From Aphrocallistes beatrix (lineage: Eukaryota; Porifera; Hexactinellida; Sceptrulophora; Aphrocallistidae), in NCBI GenBank assembly GCA_963281255.1, contig OY725503.1, positions 3,906,001 through 3,970,000 on the forward strand: a stretch of DNA of 64,000 nucleotides, written 5' to 3'. Below are positions 18,001 to 40,287 of this stretch, in pieces. Position 1 is the stretch's first letter, and the number at the start of each line of letters is the position of its first letter. The position numbers and the translations under genes were made by a program. The notes beneath the pieces are model-generated. The model was given only the letters and a program-made list of their open reading frames with translations. It did no database searches and was not told the DNA's origin.

Positions 18001-20667
18001 ACTCAATGTACGATGCAAGAATACCGGAATCGTGGAGAAAGGTAGGTTATATCATAGCGGAAAATATATATTTGATTTATTATGCCAATTTTAACATTTG
18101 ACAGGTGTCTTGGGACTCCAGTACATTGGGTTTCTGGTTCACAGAGTTGTTAGAGAGAAATACACAGTTCCATACTTGGTGCTTTGAGGGCCGACCCAAA
18201 GTATTCTGGATGACAGGCTTCTTCAATGCTCAGGGATTCCTAACTGCCATGAAACAAGTTGGAACTTATACGTACATAACGGATGATAAAAACTGAGTTT
18301 TTATTACAGCTTATTTTGTTAGGAGGTAACTCGTGCTCACAAAGGCTGGGCTCTCGACTCAGTAGTGCTCCATAACGAAGTGATAAAACTGTCGAAAGAG
18401 GAGATAGAAGACCCACCCTCTGAGGGTGTGTATGTGTACGGGCTGTATATGGATGGAGGCGGTTGGGATAAGAAGAATTGTCGATTAACGGAACAACAAA
18501 ACAAGGTATGAATTCTGCAGCCGTATTCACTAAGATCTTAAGCACTAAGATCGATCTTAAGTCTTAAGATCGATCTTAAGTCTTAAGATCGATCTTAGTT
18601 AAGATCGATCTTAAGATCGAACTTAGAGCTATTCACTAAGAATTAAGATCGATCTTAAGATCGATCTTAGTTAAGATCGATCTTAAGATAGAACTTAGAA
18701 ATAACGTTAGGGTTAATATGATTAGAATATAGCATTATACTAATCAAATACAAAACTGAACTATAATATTTGTAATGGTAAGTGGTCATTTATTATTGAT
18801 CTAGTGAAAATAAACTATATTTCTTCTTTTTGTTCAAAATTGGGGCAATTAATGTCAATATTAGGAGCAAAGAAGATTGATTAACCCACTCCTGTAAGAC
18901 ATAGCTTCTATCTATGTAGTTGTACCGCCTGAAATGCCTGCTAGTGAGTCTCTTACATATCTGTGGTGAAATCTTTGTTTTAACTTTGAATTCTATTATG
19001 AAAATTCAATGTTTTATGCATGTAATCTATAATTATTCTACACTAGTCAATATCAAAGGAAGAGCTATCAAAGAGCACAAGTTATACCTCATGGATTCAT
19101 AATATTATATTAAACAAAACATATAAACGACGTGTCTTTATATATTGTAACATGAAAACCTCTCTAAAACAAAGTATAAACACTGGATATGAGAAGTACA
19201 ATAGATTGAACTCTATCGACGGTAAAATTTCTGCGTCATTTGGTGTTAAGAAAATAATTGGTGTCATTAGTGGTTATGGTAAGTCGGCGTCCTCCCGTGT
19301 ATATAAATTGCTGCTGAGTACTTGCATTAACAATACCAGACCAAATGGACAAATCATGCAAAGCAAATTGGACCAGAGAAGTCTCATTAATGAAATTGAA
19401 TCAGCAGGTGAGATTTTGAGAGGCTCAGGAATTCTGCTGACAAAAACAGGAAGCCAGAAAGACTGGTGTGGGGTACAAACACTGCTGGACAGGTAGAAGA
19501 CGAGGACATGTAATTATATCAGCAGATAGAAGTATTTCTGACTCTGCAGATCGGGTAACAGAGATGTTTCAAAACACCCTTGCTTTTAGCGGAATTACAG
19601 GTGCTGCTGATCTTTTTCAAAGCACCAGCTGAGAACAATGAAATTCCAATAGCATCAACAGTATCAGCTGCAGGTCCTGTTGAATTTGAAGATACTCCAA
19701 TTTTAGAGTCTCCAGAAGTTGAAATCCCGACAATATATACTCGTAAGCCATCAAAGAAAAGTCGGAAGAGAAGGCGAACTGTTGATGAGCAAGATGATTC
19801 GGTCAAACTCTTGAAGGCTGCAGACTTACTTCCATTACAGCAGGTTGATGAAGAGCAGAGGGACTATTATAGATTGAAACGTCAGAGACTGCTGAAAAAA
19901 TCATTGTGAATAGGAAAATAGGATCAAAGTGATTATTATCAGTCATGTGAATCAATATATAAAGCCTCTCTCTATAATTGTGCATATTGGAATGATTATA
20001 TGATCAAAGAATGTATGTTTGTTTATTCATACAAATCCAAAAAGAATTTGCCACGAATATAGCATGTGATACATGTTGCGATGTTACACACAATAAGGAG
20101 AAATGTTTTTAAAATATTTAAATTTTATTTGAAGTCTAATATCAATCAAGTTAGATTAAATGTTCGATAGAAGTAAGTTTGAACAACATTTATGGAGTAA
20201 TTAGTGAAAATCGAATCAATTACAATACTTAAGACACCTCCCTAGGTTGCTTAAAGTTCGGTCTTAAGTTCGGTCTTAAGATCGAACTTAAATCTTAGTG
20301 AATACCATTCTTAGTGAATACGACTTAAGATCGAACTTAAGACTTAAGCACTAAGATCGATCTTAAGATCGGTCTTAAGTTCTTAGTGAATACGGCCGCT
20401 GAACTTTTCTGTTAAGAATTTTTTTGAGACTCTTCTATGTCCATTCATTGCCTCTCTACACAGGTCTTATTCGTAAACATGCCAATCCTGCACTTATTCG
20501 CGATACAGCACTCAGGGGAGCGAGATCCTAAGATCTACTACTGCCCTGTCTATAAAAAACCGAGACGTACAGACCTCACCTACATAACTACAGTTCTCTT
20601 AAAGACCCTGGTTCACCCAGACCACTGGACGATGAGGGGGGTTGCCTTGCTCTGTGACGTCAAGTAA
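49..20667 (+). CDS. DNAH5: Axonemal outer-arm dynein heavy chain, DNAH5/DNAH8 type (5' end outside window)
   Basis: ATP-driven motor of the ciliary outer dynein arm. About 52 exons with GT-AG ends are readable: 49-425, 491-604, 670-837, 904-1082, 1208-1415, 1543-1730, then on to the tail stem. E20 is 6056-6425, E21 7767-8235, E38 14741-15077, E39 15459-15573, E51 18323-18505 and the last exon 20464-20667. Motor motifs occur in order: AAA1 P-loop GPAGTGKT (split across 8235/8289), AAA2 GPTGTGKT (split 9236/9437), AAA3 GEQGTAKT (near 10530), AAA4 GVGGSGKQS (near 11910). The stalk coiled coil (12787-13771) follows, then AAA5-6 and a C-terminal domain ending [16 protein letters not shown]. The match to DNAH5/8 runs through the whole length, including the tail; choosing between these two paralogues is inference. 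The N-terminal few hundred residues are missing because the window starts inside the gene. Three introns carry foreign content: nanos, SRP9 and a transposon. Confidence 0.95.
6697..6703 (+). promoter_or_regulatory. TATA-like box upstream of nested nanos
   Basis: TATAAAT lies 48 bp before the nanos ATG and is followed by a CT-rich stretch that could serve as an initiator. It is the only promoter-like signal in the 325 bp between the dynein splice donor and nanos. The match is short and the region AT-rich, so it could be chance. Confidence 0.3.
6751..7275 (+). CDS. nanos: Nanos RNA-binding protein, intronless, nested in a dynein intron
   Basis: Nanos proteins act with Pumilio and CCR4-NOT to repress mRNAs, chiefly in germline and stem cells. 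The 174-residue protein has a low-complexity Ser/Pro-rich N-terminus. Its C-terminal half has the two CCHC zinc knuckles of the family: CVFC, then His and Cys, followed by [17 protein letters not shown]. The reading frame is open further upstream, but the first ATG is at 6751. The gene sits on the same strand as the host, inside the 1341-bp intron between dynein exons 6056-6425 and 7767-8235, with 325 bp before it and about 490 bp after it. It has no intron, unlike the second nanos in this window. A CT-rich tract and a TATAAAT precede the start. Family assignment is firm; germline function is inferred. Confidence 0.93.
   Translation: MNYLYASSLPGPLDKAIDDVTKRASVSPYQFNPSDVTSPTFSSQQRDPTPRTFNVSFTLPKAGQTSPKPSIEIQQNPSPPVSPVDSIGIDYQLSVQRQRAALNRDRYKKVRFCVFCQSSKQPEHVYRTHVLKDPEGRVVCPYLRSYTCPLCGASGDDAHTMKYCPLRQPTIVFT
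15181..15408 (-). CDS. SRP9: Signal recognition particle 9 kDa protein, nested antisense in a dynein intron
   Basis: SRP9 pairs with SRP14 on the Alu domain of SRP RNA and slows translation while the ribosome is brought to the ER. The 75-residue ORF begins [18 protein letters not shown] and contains [14 protein letters not shown]-like and [16 protein letters not shown] blocks. These line up along the length with human SRP9, which is about 86 residues. The ORF is intronless, starts with ATG and lies wholly within the 381-bp dynein intron 15078-15458 on the opposite strand. Only 50 bp separate its ATG from dynein exon 39 (15459-15573), so its promoter must be tiny or overlap dynein coding sequence. 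The C-terminal tail is about ten residues shorter than in human. Confidence 0.9.
18518..20398. mobile_element. Non-autonomous inverted-repeat DNA transposon in last dynein intron
   Basis: The two ends are inverted copies: GCCGTATTCACTAAGA at the left and its complement at the right, flanked by CTG on both sides (18515-18517 and 20399-20401), a likely 3-bp target duplication. Sub-terminal arrays of a palindromic TTAAGATCGATC-type motif fill 18530-18690 and 20245-20390. The interior holds two short ORFs (19152-19496 and about 19580-19909). The second has a basic KKSRKRRR patch and a charged helical tail, as in accessory DNA-binding proteins of some cut-and-paste transposons. No DDE transposase is visible, so the copy is probably non-autonomous or decayed. 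End sequence and 3-bp duplication recall the PIF/Harbinger group, but that assignment is tentative. The element almost fills the intron 18506-20463. Confidence 0.8.
19152..19496 (+). CDS. Transposon-internal ORF, unknown function
   Basis: A 114-residue ATG ORF inside the inverted-repeat element. No family is recognised. It is basic in its first half and has no visible catalytic motif. A second frame (19580-19909) follows with a nuclear-localisation-like KKSRKRRR patch and a charged C-terminus; its apparent start is TTG, so it may be a downstream exon or a decayed piece of the same gene. The assignment to the element rests only on position between the terminal repeats. Confidence 0.35.
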   Translation: MKTSLKQSINTGYEKYNRLNSIDGKISASFGVKKIIGVISGYGKSASSRVYKLLLSTCINNTRPNGQIMQSKLDQRSLINEIESAGEILRGSGILLTKTGSQKDWCGVQTLLDR

Positions 20668-31452: not shown

Positions 31453-31782
31453 TTCAGACTGAGGGACTGGCAGATCTTCAGACTGAGGGACTGGCAGATC
31501 TTCAGACTGAGGGACTGGCAGATCGTCAGACTGAGGGACTGGCAGATCGTCAGACTGAGGGACTGGCAGATCTTCAGACTGAGGGACTGGCAGATCTTTA
31601 GACTAAGGGACCAGATCGTCAGACTGAGGGACTGGCAGATCTTCAAACTGAGGGACTGGCAGATCTTCAGACTGAGGGACTACCAGATCTTCAGACTGAG
31701 GGACTGGCAGATCTTCAGACTGAGGGACTACCAGATCTTCAGACTGAGGGACTACCAGATCTTCAGACTGAGGGACTTCCAA
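31453..31782. repeat. 24-bp minisatellite (about 13-14 copies)
   Basis: Head-to-tail copies of a 24-bp unit, AGACTGAGGGACTGGCAGAT plus CTTC or CGTC, with a variant in which GGC becomes ACC. One copy near 31600 has lost several bases, breaking the 24-bp register. Because the unit is a multiple of three, long frames stay open on both strands, for example an 8-residue period EDLPVPQS on the minus strand. There is no start codon or domain to support coding. Confidence 0.93.
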
Positions 31783-32754: not shown

Positions 32755-32906
32755 CGGGGCGGAGTTACACGGACCGCGTCACTACACTGATGGAGGAGCT
32801 ACACGGACCGTGTAACTACACTGATGGAGGAGCTACACGGACCGCGTCACTACACTGATGGAGGAGCTACACGGACCGCTTACTACACTGATAGAGGAGC
32901 TACATA
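32755..32906. repeat. 34-bp tandem repeat (about 4 copies)
   Basis: Four near-identical copies of a 34-bp unit containing GGAGCTACACGGACCGCGTC and ACTACACTGATGGA. The last copy has lost a few bases (GACCGCTTAC). It is non-coding as far as can be seen. Confidence 0.9.
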
Positions 32907-33632: not shown

Positions 33633-35972
33633 TTATTGGGGAGCCAGTGAGAAACTAGCTGGCACAGCTGATATTTGAAAATAATTTTTCTTGCCGCGAT
33701 TTACTTCTAGAGTTGGTGTAGTAATGCGAGCGAGTGTCACATCGTTGAAGTTACCGCATTTGAACTTAAAATGAGAGTAACTAGCTTTGTCGAGGTAGAT
33801 AGTTTTGTCTTCACAGTTTGCTATAACTGGCAGGTATCGCGTGCGAAAATGCCTGACTTTGTGCGGTATCAGTAGCACCGTGTCGCCTGTTTTGAACGAG
33901 TCAACGGTCACAAAACCGGATAGAGAAGGTTGGTCGTCGAGATCTGAGAGTGAAGAAGAGCTCATTCCGTCGCTGAGTGGGAAGGAGGGAGTAGGGGTGC
34001 GAGCAGGGGGAAAGGCCATTAAGAAGTTCTGGGGTGTGGCTAAAGAGACGACTAGGTCTCTTGAGTCGCGTAATAACTTGTGGATTTGTAAGGTGTATTC
34101 AGAGCGAATTGTGAGTAGAAGGTGTGAAAAGTTCATTATTATCGTTTGCAGCTGAAGGGAAGAGGTGTAGAGTGCCTGTAACATCAGAGAGAATTTGGTT
34201 GATCGCTGCGCTCGCTCGCTGCGAAGCTTATCAATGCTATTTTCTAACATATTCTTCTGTGTTTCCTTGACTTTCGTATCAGGATGGACAGAAAAGACAT
34301 TGATGCATGTTTCGATATCACTTAAACTGGCTAGTGGATCGTGCGATGCTTGAGACGAAGAAAGGTGTGAAATTAATTCGGCTGCTTTGTGCTGTTGAAA
34401 TGAAATATCTGCACTTAGTTTTGTTTGAATTTCAGAAAGAGATTGGCCAATCTCTTGCAGTCGATCTTGTGCTTGGAAATTTTCAGATAGCAACGCATCA
34501 AAGTTGATAGAATCAATTTCTAACGTTGTATTGATTGTATCAATCTTCGCATCTGCAGCTGCTTTCTCGACGGATAACTGCGAGTCAATCTCAATGAATT
34601 GTGAAATGAAATGCTTGCAGTAGCCTATTATAATGCCAACTGCATCTTCATGGTTTGCTTCATTTGTTTTCAGCATTCTAAGGGTGGAACTCAAATGCCT
34701 CGCAATGGTACCTTTATTCATAGAGTCAACATCGTTTTCTAGTTTCTTTAAAGAGGGCGGGGTGAATAGAGGAGAAATTCGGGCGGTTGTAAATATCGAC
34801 ATGTCACATACCACGATCATTTCCAGTTCGGGCAACGCGGTGTGGTATATAGAGAGCATGTTCTTGTTGCTATTGCTGATACTTATGATATCATCTTCAG
34901 AGAGAAACAGGACGAGTAAGTTTTCCTCATGCACGGAGAATTCTTCTGTTGCTTTTGCAACGAGGCCGTTCCATCCAGTTATTTGATCTTTCGCTACATT
35001 AGTAGCTTGTTCTGTGTGGAGAAAGAAAAGGGAAAGTTTTGGTGAAATAAAGTTTTCGGCATGTTCTACGAGAGTTTCGAGGTCAATTCTTTTCAATGGA
35101 TCAACTTCTAAAAGTTGTTTTATCAGAGTTTCAATTTTCTCGAGGAAATTTGATGAGAAATGATGACCAATTTTGCTCGGGAATTTGTAAATATAATTCA
35201 CCCTGTCATACTTTAATTCAAAAGCAAGGGCATCCTTCTTTTTGGAAATAAGTCCGTGGATTCTCTTCACATCTGCAGCAAACCCATATTCACCCACAAT
35301 CGCGAAATATAACAGAGCTCCGATACTCCATAGGTCGACTAAATCAGTGTAGGTCCTTCCTGGTTCAATGAGGCATTGCAAGGCCTCAGGGGCCATGAAC
35401 GCCGGACTGCCAGCGAGGGATTGCAGCGGAATCTCATGGTCCCAATAACGTGCGTAGCCAAAGTCTGCAAGTTTGATATCAAAAGCCTTCTTTTTAGGGT
35501 CTGTCCATTTTATGAGGACATTTTGTGGCTTTATATCTCGGTGTACGATGTCGTGTTGGTGTAAAAATGAAACGCCTTGAGCGACCTGAATTAAAAAACG
35601 TGTTATCATCTCCTCGCTGGGATCGTTAGCCTTACGGTAGACGGAGAAATCGTCATCGCATAGTTCCATCACGAGAATAATTTCTGAGCGCGTCTCTTCT
35701 ACTGCGAACAGTTTGACGATGAAAGGGCAAGTCTTTACATTTTGCAGAATGTCGATTTCTCTCCCGAGAATACGTTGACTTTTTTCGTTCTTAAGAATAC
35801 GGGATCGAGCGATACATTTGACAGCCACTGGATATTTTTCTCTCACGTGGTGTCCTTTATACACGTTAGCAAATGTACCAGAACCGATCCGGTCACTGGG
35901 ATTTTCAGTCCATTTGAAATCTCCTGAATAAGGTGAAATACCACCTGATACAAGGTTGGATATAGTTGTCAT
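33633..35972 (-). CDS. ULK/TBK1-like Ser/Thr kinase fused to an ATG11/FIP200 claw domain
   Basis: Single exon, 779 residues, ATG at 35972. Residues about 20-310 form a complete protein kinase: Gly loop IGSGTFANVYKG, VAIK-type Lys52, HRD 144-146, DFG 170-172, APE 194-196, with LADFGYARYWDHE and LAGSPAFMAPEAL resembling ULK1. FIVKLFAVEE, and a possible ubiquitin-like stretch at 312-395 directly after the kinase, recall TBK1/IKK-epsilon. Residues about 400-640 are helical and coiled-coil-like, followed by a Ser/Pro-rich linker (655-685). Residues 688-772 match the C-terminal claw of ATG11/FIP200 (RB1CC1): FKTGDTVLLIP, an IYLD core strand, LARIT and YFQISAVPA. In animals the initiating kinase and the FIP200 scaffold are separate proteins. 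The kinase and claw calls are strong; the middle assignment and the autophagy role are inference. Confidence 0.85.
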   Translation of the reverse strand: MTTISNLVSGGISPYSGDFKWTENPSDRIGSGTFANVYKGHHVREKYPVAVKCIARSRILKNEKSQRILGREIDILQNVKTCPFIVKLFAVEETRSEIILVMELCDDDFSVYRKANDPSEEMITRFLIQVAQGVSFLHQHDIVHRDIKPQNVLIKWTDPKKKAFDIKLADFGYARYWDHEIPLQSLAGSPAFMAPEALQCLIEPGRTYTDLVDLWSIGALLYFAIVGEYGFAADVKRIHGLISKKKDALAFELKYDRVNYIYKFPSKIGHHFSSNFLEKIETLIKQLLEVDPLKRIDLETLVEHAENFISPKLSLFFLHTEQATNVAKDQITGWNGLVAKATEEFSVHEENLLVLFLSEDDIISISNSNKNMLSIYHTALPELEMIVVCDMSIFTTARISPLFTPPSLKKLENDVDSMNKGTIARHLSSTLRMLKTNEANHEDAVGIIIGYCKHFISQFIEIDSQLSVEKAAADAKIDTINTTLEIDSINFDALLSENFQAQDRLQEIGQSLSEIQTKLSADISFQQHKAAELISHLSSSQASHDPLASLSDIETCINVFSVHPDTKVKETQKNMLENSIDKLRSERAQRSTKFSLMLQALYTSSLQLQTIIMNFSHLLLTIRSEYTLQIHKLLRDSRDLVVSLATPQNFLMAFPPARTPTPSFPLSDGMSSSSLSDLDDQPSLSGFVTVDSFKTGDTVLLIPHKVRHFRTRYLPVIANCEDKTIYLDKASYSHFKFKCGNFNDVTLARITTPTLEVNRGKKNYFQISAVPASFSLAPQ

Positions 35973-36886: not shown

Positions 36887-38128
36887 ATGTCGCATACTTC
36901 GTATCGTGTGCTCTCAAGCCACTCTGAGAAATTGGCACCAAGTGGTACGATTGGTTTGGACAGGCTACCACAACAGGTTGTTAATAAGGCAGTACGTCTG
37001 GGATTTGACTTTAACATACTGTGTATCGGTGAGACGGGAATTGGCAAGAGTACTTTGATTGATACTTTGTTCAAGACGGAATTCAACTCTTCTCCTGTTA
37101 CCCATAACCAGACAGAAGTTAGCTTACACGAGAATACATATCGATTGAAGGAAGGTAATGTCCAGTTACGTTTGACAGTTGTAGATACCGTAGGATTTGG
37201 TGATCAAATTAACAAGGAGAGTTCGTACAAACCGATAGTGAAATACGTCGATAAACAGTTTGAGAGGTACGTGCTAGAAGAGCTCAAACCTAACCGAAAT
37301 AATTTGGACTATCACGACACTCGCATTCATGCCTGTCTCTACTTCATTTCTCCCACCGGCCATTCCCTGAAAGTTCTCGATTTGTATACAATGAAGGCTT
37401 TGGATGAAAAGGTAAATCTCATACCAATCATCGCTAAAGCAGATACCATGAGCCAACAAGATTTGGTAAGTTTTAAGGCTAGCATCCTTGAGGAGATTAA
37501 GAGTAACGGAATAAGTACTTACAACCCTAACGAGAATGGAATCGGAGGTGCCACACATCATGGCGGTATTCCCTATGCCGTAATCGGTAGTAGAGAAATG
37601 GTGGTAGCTAAAAACACAAAAGTACGCGGGCGTAAATATCCATGGGGTGTAGTGGAAGTGGAAAACGAGAAACATTGCGATTTCGTGCGTCTCAGGGACA
37701 TGTTGATTCGAACGAGTATGGAAGATTTGAGAGAGAAAACACACTCAATACACTATGAGCAATATCGCACAGTGTATTTGGAGAAAATGCCAGGGTATGA
37801 GCCTTATGTCAAAGGAAAAGATACGAAGCAAATGTTGCTGCAAACTCGAGAACAGGAAGTAGCTAGAGAGAGGGAACTCGATAGAAGAGTGGCTGAGAGA
37901 CTTGAGGCAAAAGAAAAAGAATGGAAAAGAATTGAAGACAAAATGAGAGCCGAGTTGGAATTAGAACGGAAAAAATACGCTGAAGAATTAGAAAAAATTG
38001 AAAATTCACGCAATGAGCTCAATAAAGAAGTCGTGGAATTTAAAGATCTCAAGTCGCAAATGGAGCAAAGTAGAACGGATACGTTACAAAAAATGAAAGG
38101 GAAAAAGAGCTCAAGTAAGATCGTTTAG
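36887..38128 (+). CDS. Septin, SEPT6/8/10/11 group
   Basis: A GTP-binding filament protein of the cell cortex and cytokinesis ring. Intronless, 413 residues. The septin order is complete: polybasic-like N-terminus, P-loop [12 protein letters not shown] (residues about 47-58), G3 DTVGFGD, AKAD (G4), the septin unique element near [20 protein letters not shown], and a long C-terminal coiled coil (about 320-400). [21 protein letters not shown] and [12 protein letters not shown] match the SEPT6 group best. Members of that group usually lack the switch-I catalytic Thr. Length is normal (human SEPT6 is about 430). Confidence 0.95.
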
Positions 38129-38910
38129 TTGCTGTTAGTTGAGGTTCAATCTAATCCTTATCCAGCCAGGTGTATTTATCTTTAAACCCTGGAGTTGTTC
38201 ATATTATTTCTAGAATTGCTAAACTATGACGGATAATAAATATCTTGTCGTGTTTGATAAATGTGTTATACTACGCTAGGTGTAATTTGTGTCTAATTAA
38301 ATCAATAGAAATAATATTAGGAAAGTATAACATGTTATCTTCCCAGAAATTATCTACATTTTTCGCAGAGAAATACCACTAAAATTTCACGATGAGAGAC
38401 ATTCCAAATTGAAATACAATCGAACATTTTTACTTCGTAAAATGCTACTGCATTATTTCGTACTACGATAATTTTCTCTAAAAAAGTAATTGAAATTTCT
38501 TTCGAATCTGTTATCGGAGATAAGTACGTAATATCCGAGTTTAAGCCTTAAAAGCCGAGTACGTACTACTTAACGAGCTCTTATCAGAGCTTTGAGTTAC
38601 ATTTCAGAATATAACATAGATTTGTGATTATTAGGAAATCATTATAATATCTATACACCCCAAAATTTGGTAAGCGGAACTTTCGTCCCTGGAATTTTCG
38701 TCCCCGGAATTTTAGTCTCATTAGAGACTAAAATAAACGGGCACTAATATGTAAGGAACGGAAAGTGAGGCTTTTGGAGTGGAGTATGTTTGAAAAAAAG
38801 GGTGAAATGGGGCATTTTGATTGAGAAATCAATAGGTGCGAAAGTGGCATTTCAGGGGACGAAATTTCCGCCATTCCCAAAATTTATACCCAGGTATACT
38901 AGCCTTTACA
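38129..38910. other. Intergenic region, septin 3' flank and RANBP9/10 promoter side
   Basis: About 780 bp. The first 500 bp are AT-rich without recognised features. The last 240 bp form the inverted-repeat element listed separately, which abuts the RANBP9/10 start. Confidence 0.6.
38652..38896. mobile_element. MITE-like inverted-repeat element at RANBP9/10 promoter
   Basis: The left end, CACCCCAAAATTTGGTAAGCGG then AACTTTCGTCCC, is matched by the complement of GGGGACGAAATTTCCGCC and ATTCCCAAAATTTATACCC at the right. The arms are about 35 bp and imperfect. TAT flanks both sides. The interior has repeated GGAATTTTCGTCCC copies and no coding capacity. It ends about 15 bp before the RANBP9/10 ATG at 38911, so it may supply promoter or 5' untranslated sequence. 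Confidence 0.7.
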
Positions 38911-40287
38911 ATGGACGCTCTCTCCTACACACAAACTGCCACTAACACTCCTCGTATCCACGAAAACCTACCCAGCATGTGGAGCAGCAAGGACAACTAC
39001 GCTTCCTTAGCTCTCACACATAGCAACCTCTGGGTCACATTCCGTGGACACGGCAAGTCACAAGGGAAAGACGCTGCCTCTGTTCGCTCCAATAACCCTA
39101 TCCCCAAATCATGCGGCATTTACTACTACGAAATTAGCATTATCTCTAAAGGGAGGGATGGTTACATCGGCATTGGTCTATCCTCACGCAAATGTGCATC
39201 GAACCGTCTACCCGGCTGGGATAAGAATTCCTACGGTTACCATGGTGATGATGGTTTCATTTTCACCGCCACTTCAACAGGGAAACCTTACGGTCCAATT
39301 TTCACAACCGGTGACGTCATTGGCTGTGGTCTAAACACGATAACGAACACTTGTTTCTATACGAAAAATGGCATCTACTTAGGTATCGCCTTCCATAGCG
39401 TCCCTCCCAATTATTACCCCACAGTTGGACTGCAGACGTCAGGAGAAACGATCGCTGCCAACTTTGGCCAGGAGGACTTCGTATTTGACATTGAAGGGTT
39501 TACGAGTTCGTTTCGTCAAAAAATATTAGACTCGATTGTTGAACGTCAATTGCCCTCGAAACAGGTTTCTAATTCTCCTTACTTTATGCACCAGCTCGTA
39601 TTGTCTTATCTCGTACATAATGGCCACTGTAAGAGTGCGAAAGAATTCGCTAGCGCCACTCGACAGGAAATACCTGAGTCTGAAGAATCTATGGTGAAGA
39701 GGCAGCAGATTCATAATTACATTCTAACTGGGAAGTTATCTGAGGCAATGAAGATGTGTAATCAACTGTACCCAGCTCTTTTCGAGAGTAATATTGTGCT
39801 GAAATTCCGCATCAAATGTCAACACTTTTTAGAGGTTTTATCGGGGAATGATAGTTTCGAAGAGGTAGAAATGAATGGAACAGGCGATATATCTTGCTTC
39901 GACTCCGCTTCTAACTTTCCTACCCTCCCTACCTATAAGGAGTTAGCCAGCTTAGTTCTATACGGCAGGAATGAGTTGATTCCACTCGTGACAATGCTCA
40001 TAGACAGTAAACTGATGACAGAAGAACTGACGTCATACTACCACGACATATTCTCAATACTGGTCTATCCGGACCCAGTCGCATCCCCGCTCAACTACTT
40101 ACTAGACAAATCCCAGCGCGTATCACTAGGCAATTGCCTCAACAGTGCAATCCTTACATACTTAAATTCCCCATCAAAACCGCCCCTATACAAATTGTTG
40201 CAGTACTCGAACCAGGTCTGGCATTACATGGACGAGAAAGAGGTCAGTTCCACTGCACTCGTCAGTCTTGAACACTTCTGTAAATAA
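38911..40287 (+). CDS. RANBP9: RanBP9/RanBP10-type SPRY-LisH-CTLH-CRA protein
   Basis: Scaffold subunit of the CTLH (GID-type) E3 ubiquitin ligase. Intronless, 458 residues. A SPRY domain (residues about 35-200) has GIYYYEISIISKGRDGYIGIGLS and NRLPGWDKNSYGYHGDDG. LisH follows (LVLSYLVHNGHCKSAKEFA), then CTLH (QIHNYILTGKLSEAMKMCNQ) and the C-terminal CRA domain. Domain order and length fit the family core; the long N-terminal Pro/Gln region of vertebrate RANBP9 is absent. The frame is open 25 codons upstream, but that part lies within the MITE-like element, so the ATG at 38911 is preferred. Choice between paralogues 9 and 10 is not possible. Confidence 0.94.
   Translation: MDALSYTQTATNTPRIHENLPSMWSSKDNYASLALTHSNLWVTFRGHGKSQGKDAASVRSNNPIPKSCGIYYYEISIISKGRDGYIGIGLSSRKCASNRLPGWDKNSYGYHGDDGFIFTATSTGKPYGPIFTTGDVIGCGLNTITNTCFYTKNGIYLGIAFHSVPPNYYPTVGLQTSGETIAANFGQEDFVFDIEGFTSSFRQKILDSIVERQLPSKQVSNSPYFMHQLVLSYLVHNGHCKSAKEFASATRQEIPESEESMVKRQQIHNYILTGKLSEAMKMCNQLYPALFESNIVLKFRIKCQHFLEVLSGNDSFEEVEMNGTGDISCFDSASNFPTLPTYKELASLVLYGRNELIPLVTMLIDSKLMTEELTSYYHDIFSILVYPDPVASPLNYLLDKSQRVSLGNCLNSAILTYLNSPSKPPLYKLLQYSNQVWHYMDEKEVSSTALVSLEHFCK

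Follow-up and report, generated by a model that had tools for sequence, protein, structure and literature searches.

A central question of selective autophagy is how the kinase reaches the cargo and is switched on there. In mammals, ULK1 or TBK1 reaches the sites of cargo receptors through separate scaffolds and adaptors, and the claw is the part of FIP200 (RB1CC1) and Atg11 that reads these receptors. To our knowledge claws occur in autophagy scaffolds alone, and we know of no IKK or TBK1 with a C-terminal claw. The human FIP200 claw is reported to dimerise through its first strand and to form a basic and hydrophobic pocket; p62 binding is nearly abolished by R1573D, R1584A, and F1574A (PMC6477179). 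Its ligands are described as peptides, short and in many cases phosphorylated, from cargo receptors and from the TBK1 adaptors NAP1/SINTBAD (PMC6477179, PMC6971721), with binding of SINTBAD described in PMC6971721.

Here we analyse a 64,000-nucleotide stretch of the genome of the glass sponge Aphrocallistes beatrix (C17:3906001-3970000, the window), in which one open frame encodes both a kinase and a predicted claw. Like FIP200/RB1CC1 and Atg11, the encoded protein carries its claw at the C-terminus after a helical region, with the first-half motif F..GD.VL...P, a Y/F-L strand, and a net positive charge. Unlike FIP200, it has an N-terminal kinase in place of the scaffold region, measures 779 rather than 1594 residues, and in the window copy lacks the p62-pocket residues R1573, F1574, and R1584. 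Its order of kinase, probable ubiquitin-like domain, and helical part is probably that of IKKalpha/beta and TBK1/IKKepsilon, with which it shares an activation-loop serine, whereas the sponge fusion kinases form a clade of their own and the IKKs and TBK1 are encoded separately. The likeness to ULK1, ULK2, and Atg1 lies in the kinase domain, for which ULK2 is the best match in the PDB (133 bits); it differs from them in that no ATG1-like MIT domain appears in the Pfam scan and in that it falls outside the ULK branch, which holds the sponge's own ULK. A literature search covering titles and the openings of abstracts, with most subscription papers outside its reach, returned no description of a kinase–claw protein, and neither 'IKK' nor 'autophag' occurs in the main text of two glass-sponge genome papers.

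The frame lies on the minus strand of the window and starts at 35972, and the plus-strand reading of the same interval is broken by stops throughout. The initial annotation had reported the uninterrupted 779-residue frame, leaving its strand unsaid, together with the motifs FKTGDTVLLIP, IYLD, LARIT, and FQISAVPA, all of which we find within residues 693-772. From stop to stop it comprises 787 codons, which a single other open frame of the window surpasses, and its length is far beyond chance: the longest open stretch in 20 first-order Markov windows was 174 codons. The best conserved of the five parts compared is the Ser/Pro-rich linker (table 1). The adjacent genes are ordinary animal ones, and the product of the SPRY-CTLH gene is, we presume, RanBPM-like; no Rfam family or tRNA was found in the window. 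The kinase–claw gene is intronless and a retrocopy origin was considered; single-exon genes are reported to be common in glass sponges (PMC10282587).

Table 1.— Features of the kinase–claw gene and its neighbours (window positions)
Feature	Position	Strand	Remarks
One open frame of 779 aa running from kinase to claw	33633..35972	-	Stop codon 33633-33635; five full-length relatives
Protein kinase domain (residues 17-305) with intact catalytic residues	35058..35924	-	PF00069 in Pfam scan, E 3.9e-54; a clade of its own next to ULK and IKK/TBK1
Probable ubiquitin-like domain, residues 311-392	34797..35042	-	Weak profile matches to ubiquitins and IKKbeta
Helical stretch, residues 393-656	34005..34796	-	Position of the IKK scaffold/dimerisation domain; collinear IKKbeta alignment
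Ser/Pro-rich linker, residues 657-685	33918..34004	-	89% mean identity to five orthologues
FIP200/Atg11-type claw, residues 686-779, shortened at loop L5 with loss of its basic residues	33636..33917	-	Profile searches
Septin gene (ordinary animal neighbour)	36887-38128		
SPRY-CTLH protein gene (ordinary animal neighbour)	38836-40287		

A protein search with the window protein retrieved five other database proteins that match it over its full length (71-72% identity, 100% coverage), each on a contig of its own of 202-702 kb; the matches listed below the family cover about one-fifth to two-fifths of the query, corresponding to the kinase. One of the five is from the glass sponge Oopsacas minuta, and we infer that the other four (P0002-P0005) are also from glass sponges; their different contigs suggest that they come from different animals. 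The same family kinase was found in Amphimedon (P0010, filed by NCBI as IKKbeta-like), in P0008 and P0009, in Dysidea avara (P0122), and in a protein presumed to be from Ephydatia muelleri (P0121). All of these except P0121 have a claw-like C-terminal domain; the P0121 model, in which the claw HMMs described below found no match, is taken for a gene-model fault. P0008 (998 residues on a 3843-base contig) and P0009 (854 residues on a 2837-base contig) sit on contigs of a size that suggests a cDNA origin. P0122 and P0121 came from a second protein search, with the non-kinase part of P0010 as the query, which at E 1 returned five rows including the query itself, all of the kinase–claw family; the exons of the C17:51 kb locus (see below), joined and used as a query, returned nothing at E 1. 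Both the first and the second search required shared 5-residue words and scored about 8000 candidates each, which bounds the scan for kinase–claw proteins outside the sponges. A triple-kinase protein (P0007) was part of the first alignment and was later dropped because it has neither a claw nor a matching middle.

With full-length relatives on five separate contigs, a faulty join in the Aphrocallistes assembly is excluded. An assembly join, a doubt that the initial annotation had itself entered, is also ruled out by the sister loci and by the same order in Amphimedon and Dysidea, and read-through is likewise rejected by the orthologues and sister loci. The annotation had also raised the question of the same fusion in relatives: it is present in two sponge classes and at three loci of the Aphrocallistes genome, and the sequence comparisons confirm that glass sponges and demosponges carry a predicted kinase–claw family.

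The claw itself is not recognised by Pfam: neither the window protein nor its claw matched PF10377 (ATG11) at E 10, P0008 and P0010 had no match, and the claw piece of P0009 (12.1 bits) and P0122 (14.9 bits) remained below the cut-off. Profiles were more sensitive. In the PDB, a profile of eight kinase-attached claws had RB1CC1 in all of the top eight of 13 rows (E 0.03-0.06), and a profile of 12 claw rows including the C13 claw reached RB1CC1 at E 7e-5. With 12 rows that are all kinase-attached, eight RB1CC1 rows scored from 5.7e-5 to 1.4e-4 and the next row 0.57, FIP200 claws being the only significant matches. Two HMMs were then compared with 2797 translated frames and the database proteins; both were cut from an alignment built jointly with the six window-type rows, which were removed afterwards. 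The HMM of human, C13, demosponge, and sister-locus claws reached the window claw with E 1e-10, that of the C17, C16, C13, and human FIP200 claws with 1.5e-7. Up to E 1 the latter model returned 28 rows, every one of them a claw carrier and several the same place in overlapping loci; the former returned 30, of which two, at 0.76 and 0.99, carry no claw. It should be noted that only residues 688-741 of the window claw align to the C17, C16, C13, and human model, the second half being shortened. Among the six window-type proteins the claw shows 72% mean identity to the window copy (P0001), with 57% of columns invariant and a net charge of +5 to +7 in every one. The match to the FIP200/ATG11 family that had been claimed for residues 688-772 thus failed in the Pfam test but stood with the sensitive profiles, and these show, at the level of sequence, that the C-terminal domain of the window protein is a homologue of the FIP200/Atg11 claw.

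Searches of the Aphrocallistes genome cover an assembly of 100.5 Mb in 28 contigs. The PF10377 profile detected three places, two of them over the cut-off of 22 bits. At C17:50880-51113 (minus strand) a claw with 27.9 bits lies 2.6 kb behind a kinase match on the same strand (51% identity over 124-247), and the frames in between read, by eye, as kinase, ubiquitin-like, helical, and claw; its last exon, absent from the model input, was found at 4.3e-5 by the C17, C16, C13, and human HMM and ends in a stop. At C16:4139280 a claw with 22.2 bits lies 2.1 kb behind another family kinase, again on the same strand. A search with the C17 claw alone yielded five places, namely itself, C13:4145781, C4:4709646, C16:4139280, and the window claw (E 0.05); the reverse search with the window claw gave weak matches at C13 (E 0.08) and C16 (E 0.17). 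Family kinase and claw occur together at the window, C17, and C16 loci, and this predicted sponge kinase family has at least three loci in the genome, the window gene among them.

For about 17 kb upstream of the claws at C13:4145.8 kb and C4:4709.6 kb there is no family kinase, and these claws may belong to a FIP200. A fourth family kinase lies at C13:4069-4074 kb (L021), 74 kb from the kinase-less claw exon set at C13:4144-4147 kb (L001) and on the same strand. This pair may represent a single gene interrupted by a nested cluster of receptors, a duplicate that is broken, or a kinase beside a separate FIP200. By eye, L021, L004 (C13:4144-4147 kb), and L003 (C4:4708-4711 kb) seemingly contain copies of one seven-transmembrane-like gene. 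Upstream of the C17 sister (L020 7526-8161) there is a triplet repeat of about 600 bases, which reads as polyproline, polyglycine, or polyarginine; it adjoins a second copy of the sister's second kinase exon, which indicates a partial duplication.

In the kinase domain, the ten aligned family members show no variation at lysine 52, glutamate 72, HRD 144-146, DFG 170-172, APE 194-196, or serine 185 of the activation loop, as befits an active-looking Ser/Thr kinase in the neighbourhood of ULK, IKK, and TBK1. A family profile matched ULK2 in the PDB with 213.7 bits over positions 9-243, and STK33, calcium-dependent, and MARK kinases with about 124-148 bits; IKKbeta scored 125.1 bits over 19-545 and TBK1 124.3 bits over 13-357. 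The kinase core thus looks ULK-like, and only the IKK/TBK1 matches extend into the ubiquitin-like region, that of IKKbeta going beyond it. Phylogenetic analysis of 19 kinase rows separated a family clade (98/95) from IKK/TBK1 (96/96) and ULK (96/98). The family was placed on one side with IKK/TBK1 at 64/39, and a grouping with ULK was not rejected (p-AU 0.38). The window type forms a long branch; the sisters at C17 and C16 fall together, in a group with the demosponge proteins. An earlier kinase tree could not place TBK1/IKK because of long branches.

The genome encodes separate ULK1 and TBK1 genes, the presence of which had been left as a question. A ULK1/2 gene at C12:2233425 shares one branch with human ULK1/2 (96/98), and a TBK1 gene at C10:2324392-2326652 matches the human kinase in two pieces, at 51% and 68% identity, the 68% match running over stops, probably at an intron edge. 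Two neighbouring IKK-type genes at C11:754-759 kb (L041, L044) group with human IKKbeta (99/97); both are long single open frames, of 686 and at least 756 residues. A fusion of ULK1 was rejected on account of the separate ULK1/2, and one of TBK1 itself, suggested by the C-lobe and middle, on account of the separate TBK1; IKKbeta itself, the NCBI name of the Amphimedon protein, was rejected given the two IKK-type genes. Of the initial description as ULK/TBK1-like, the assignment to the ULK/IKK/TBK1 group therefore stands, and an identity with ULK1 or TBK1 does not: judged by the tree, the fusion kinases are a further lineage of this neighbourhood. This also suggests that the 'IKKbeta-like' protein of the model sponge Amphimedon lies outside both the IKK and the TBK1 branch, a placement that matters for accounts of early animal immunity.

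For the middle region, a profile of the C-lobe end and ubiquitin-like part placed MAPKAP kinase 2 first in the PDB (0.0007-0.0016, via the C-lobe end), with ubiquitins (0.0044-0.05) and IKKbeta (0.031) below it, and P0009 matches PF14560 at 0.002. In hhalign, human IKKbeta aligned to position 358, into the ULD, and the genome's own IKKs only to the end of the kinase. Among 616 rows ranked by a model of the ubiquitin-like part, a shuffled decoy came ahead of human IKKbeta, which was second, the sponge's own IKK L044 was 47th, and TBK1 was 582nd; this region is the least conserved part of the protein (49% mean identity). The helical stretch, modelled alone, matched no significant family; the collinear profile alignment to IKKbeta (profile positions 19-545) spans it. 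The ubiquitin-like and helical middle proposed at the outset is hence retained as an IKK-like ubiquitin-like domain, probable with weak statistics, and a probable helical scaffold, which on its own resembles no significant family, between kinase and claw.

Aligned to human FIP200, the window claw has lost the loop with K1569, R1573, and F1574; R1584 is replaced by Q and S1532 by K, F1529 corresponds to Y/F, and F1582 to Y (all positions being alignment-dependent). The gaps at R1573 and F1574 and the change of R1584 to Q are found in six of six window-type proteins; R1584 is kept in two of the four demosponge-type claws. The residues that hold p62 are thus lost in the window copy, and direct cargo capture by this copy is therefore unsupported, contrary to the idea in the initial annotation of a one-piece initiator recruited directly to cargo. 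As the pocket is remodelled, the partner is probably not a p62-type phosphopeptide, and we infer a docking and pairing module with a ligand other than p62.

As for the autophagy partners, ATG101 is present in the genome, and ATG13 exceeds the cut-off only when two pieces are placed in one frame. A ZZ-domain search for receptors like p62 and NBR1 gave five places over the cut-off. No RB1CC1/FIP200, also queried at the outset, was recognised in the Aphrocallistes genome, where weak queries and introns make its absence uncertain; the human claw matched nothing there at E 10. PF04108 is not among the Pfam matches of the window protein at E 10, and of its 12 genome rows the four inspected (two on C10, one each on C4 and C19) were simple repeats. 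About 800 codons at C10:4891-4892 kb (L023) form an open frame built from a seven-residue repeat of the GSLIRKL type, which mimics an ATG17 match. The Pfam scan of the window protein at E 10 has no MIT-type ATG13-binding domain (PF12063/PF21127), which Pfam also misses in the scanned part of the sponge's own ULK; genome searches with PF12063/ATG1-like MIT and TBK1_CCD1 profiles gave no match, controls included.

Our preferred reading, which we hold with middling confidence, is a sponge kinase family in which the claw serves as an integral module for docking and pairing. By holding two kinases together, the helical part and the claw would favour phosphorylation of serine 185 in trans; through the claw the kinase would also reach proteins that carry claw-binding peptides, and it could phosphorylate these proteins there; for the window copy, with its remodelled pocket, the partner would probably be of another kind than the p62-type phosphopeptide. 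It is the claw, and no other part, that would tie the protein to autophagy. A kinase that carries the claw itself would be a minimal, testable version of the step from kinase to cargo, and an evolutionary hint for the observed contact of the claw with TBK1's adaptors. A more far-reaching version for the glass sponges, that the claw passed from the scaffold to kinases, is decidedly unlikely in our view; it is suggested by three of the five claw places lying behind a family kinase, with no FIP200 recognised and ULK1/2, ATG13, and ATG101 present. If true, kinase–claw proteins would have taken over the cargo docking of FIP200, a covalent form of the mammalian coupling of TBK1, NAP1/SINTBAD, and FIP200.

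The chief competitor is an IKK-like signalling kinase outside autophagy, in which the claw would replace the adaptor-binding C-terminus of IKK/TBK1 and do no more than pair the kinase and hold an adaptor of an immunity or stress pathway. The IKK-like order of the domains, the name given to the Amphimedon member, and the loss of the FIP200 p62-pocket residues speak for this, but the genome already has two IKK-type genes and TBK1, the kinase core scores highest with ULK2/ULK1, and we know of claws only from autophagy scaffolds, so that we regard it as possible and rather doubtful. That the window domain descends from a claw and is now purely a structural cap without ligand would fit the deletion of loop L5, the changes of R1584 to Q and S1532 to K, and an alignment to the canonical claw model that is confined to residues 688-741; the conservation and constant positive charge among the orthologues and the first-half motif common to the window claw and FIP200 make it unlikely. 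An artefact, in which read-through, an assembly error, or a chance likeness of a beta-rich tail joined the kinase to an unrelated neighbour, is scarcely credible. PF10377 does fail on the window copy and the first claw profile reached only E 0.03, but there is one open frame here, five proteins of the same length lie on five contigs, two further loci of this genome and the demosponge proteins share the order, and with the window-type rows left out of the model the window claw is still detected at E 1e-10.

Several repeats were observed in the window. About 0.7 kb past the kinase–claw stop codon there is a tandem repeat (32761-32904, 34-base unit, 4.3 copies), and about 1.9 kb past it a minisatellite (31453-31777) with a 24-base unit in 13.7 copies and a 92% match; palindromic tandem repeats based on CTTAAG/GATC occupy positions 18534-18698.
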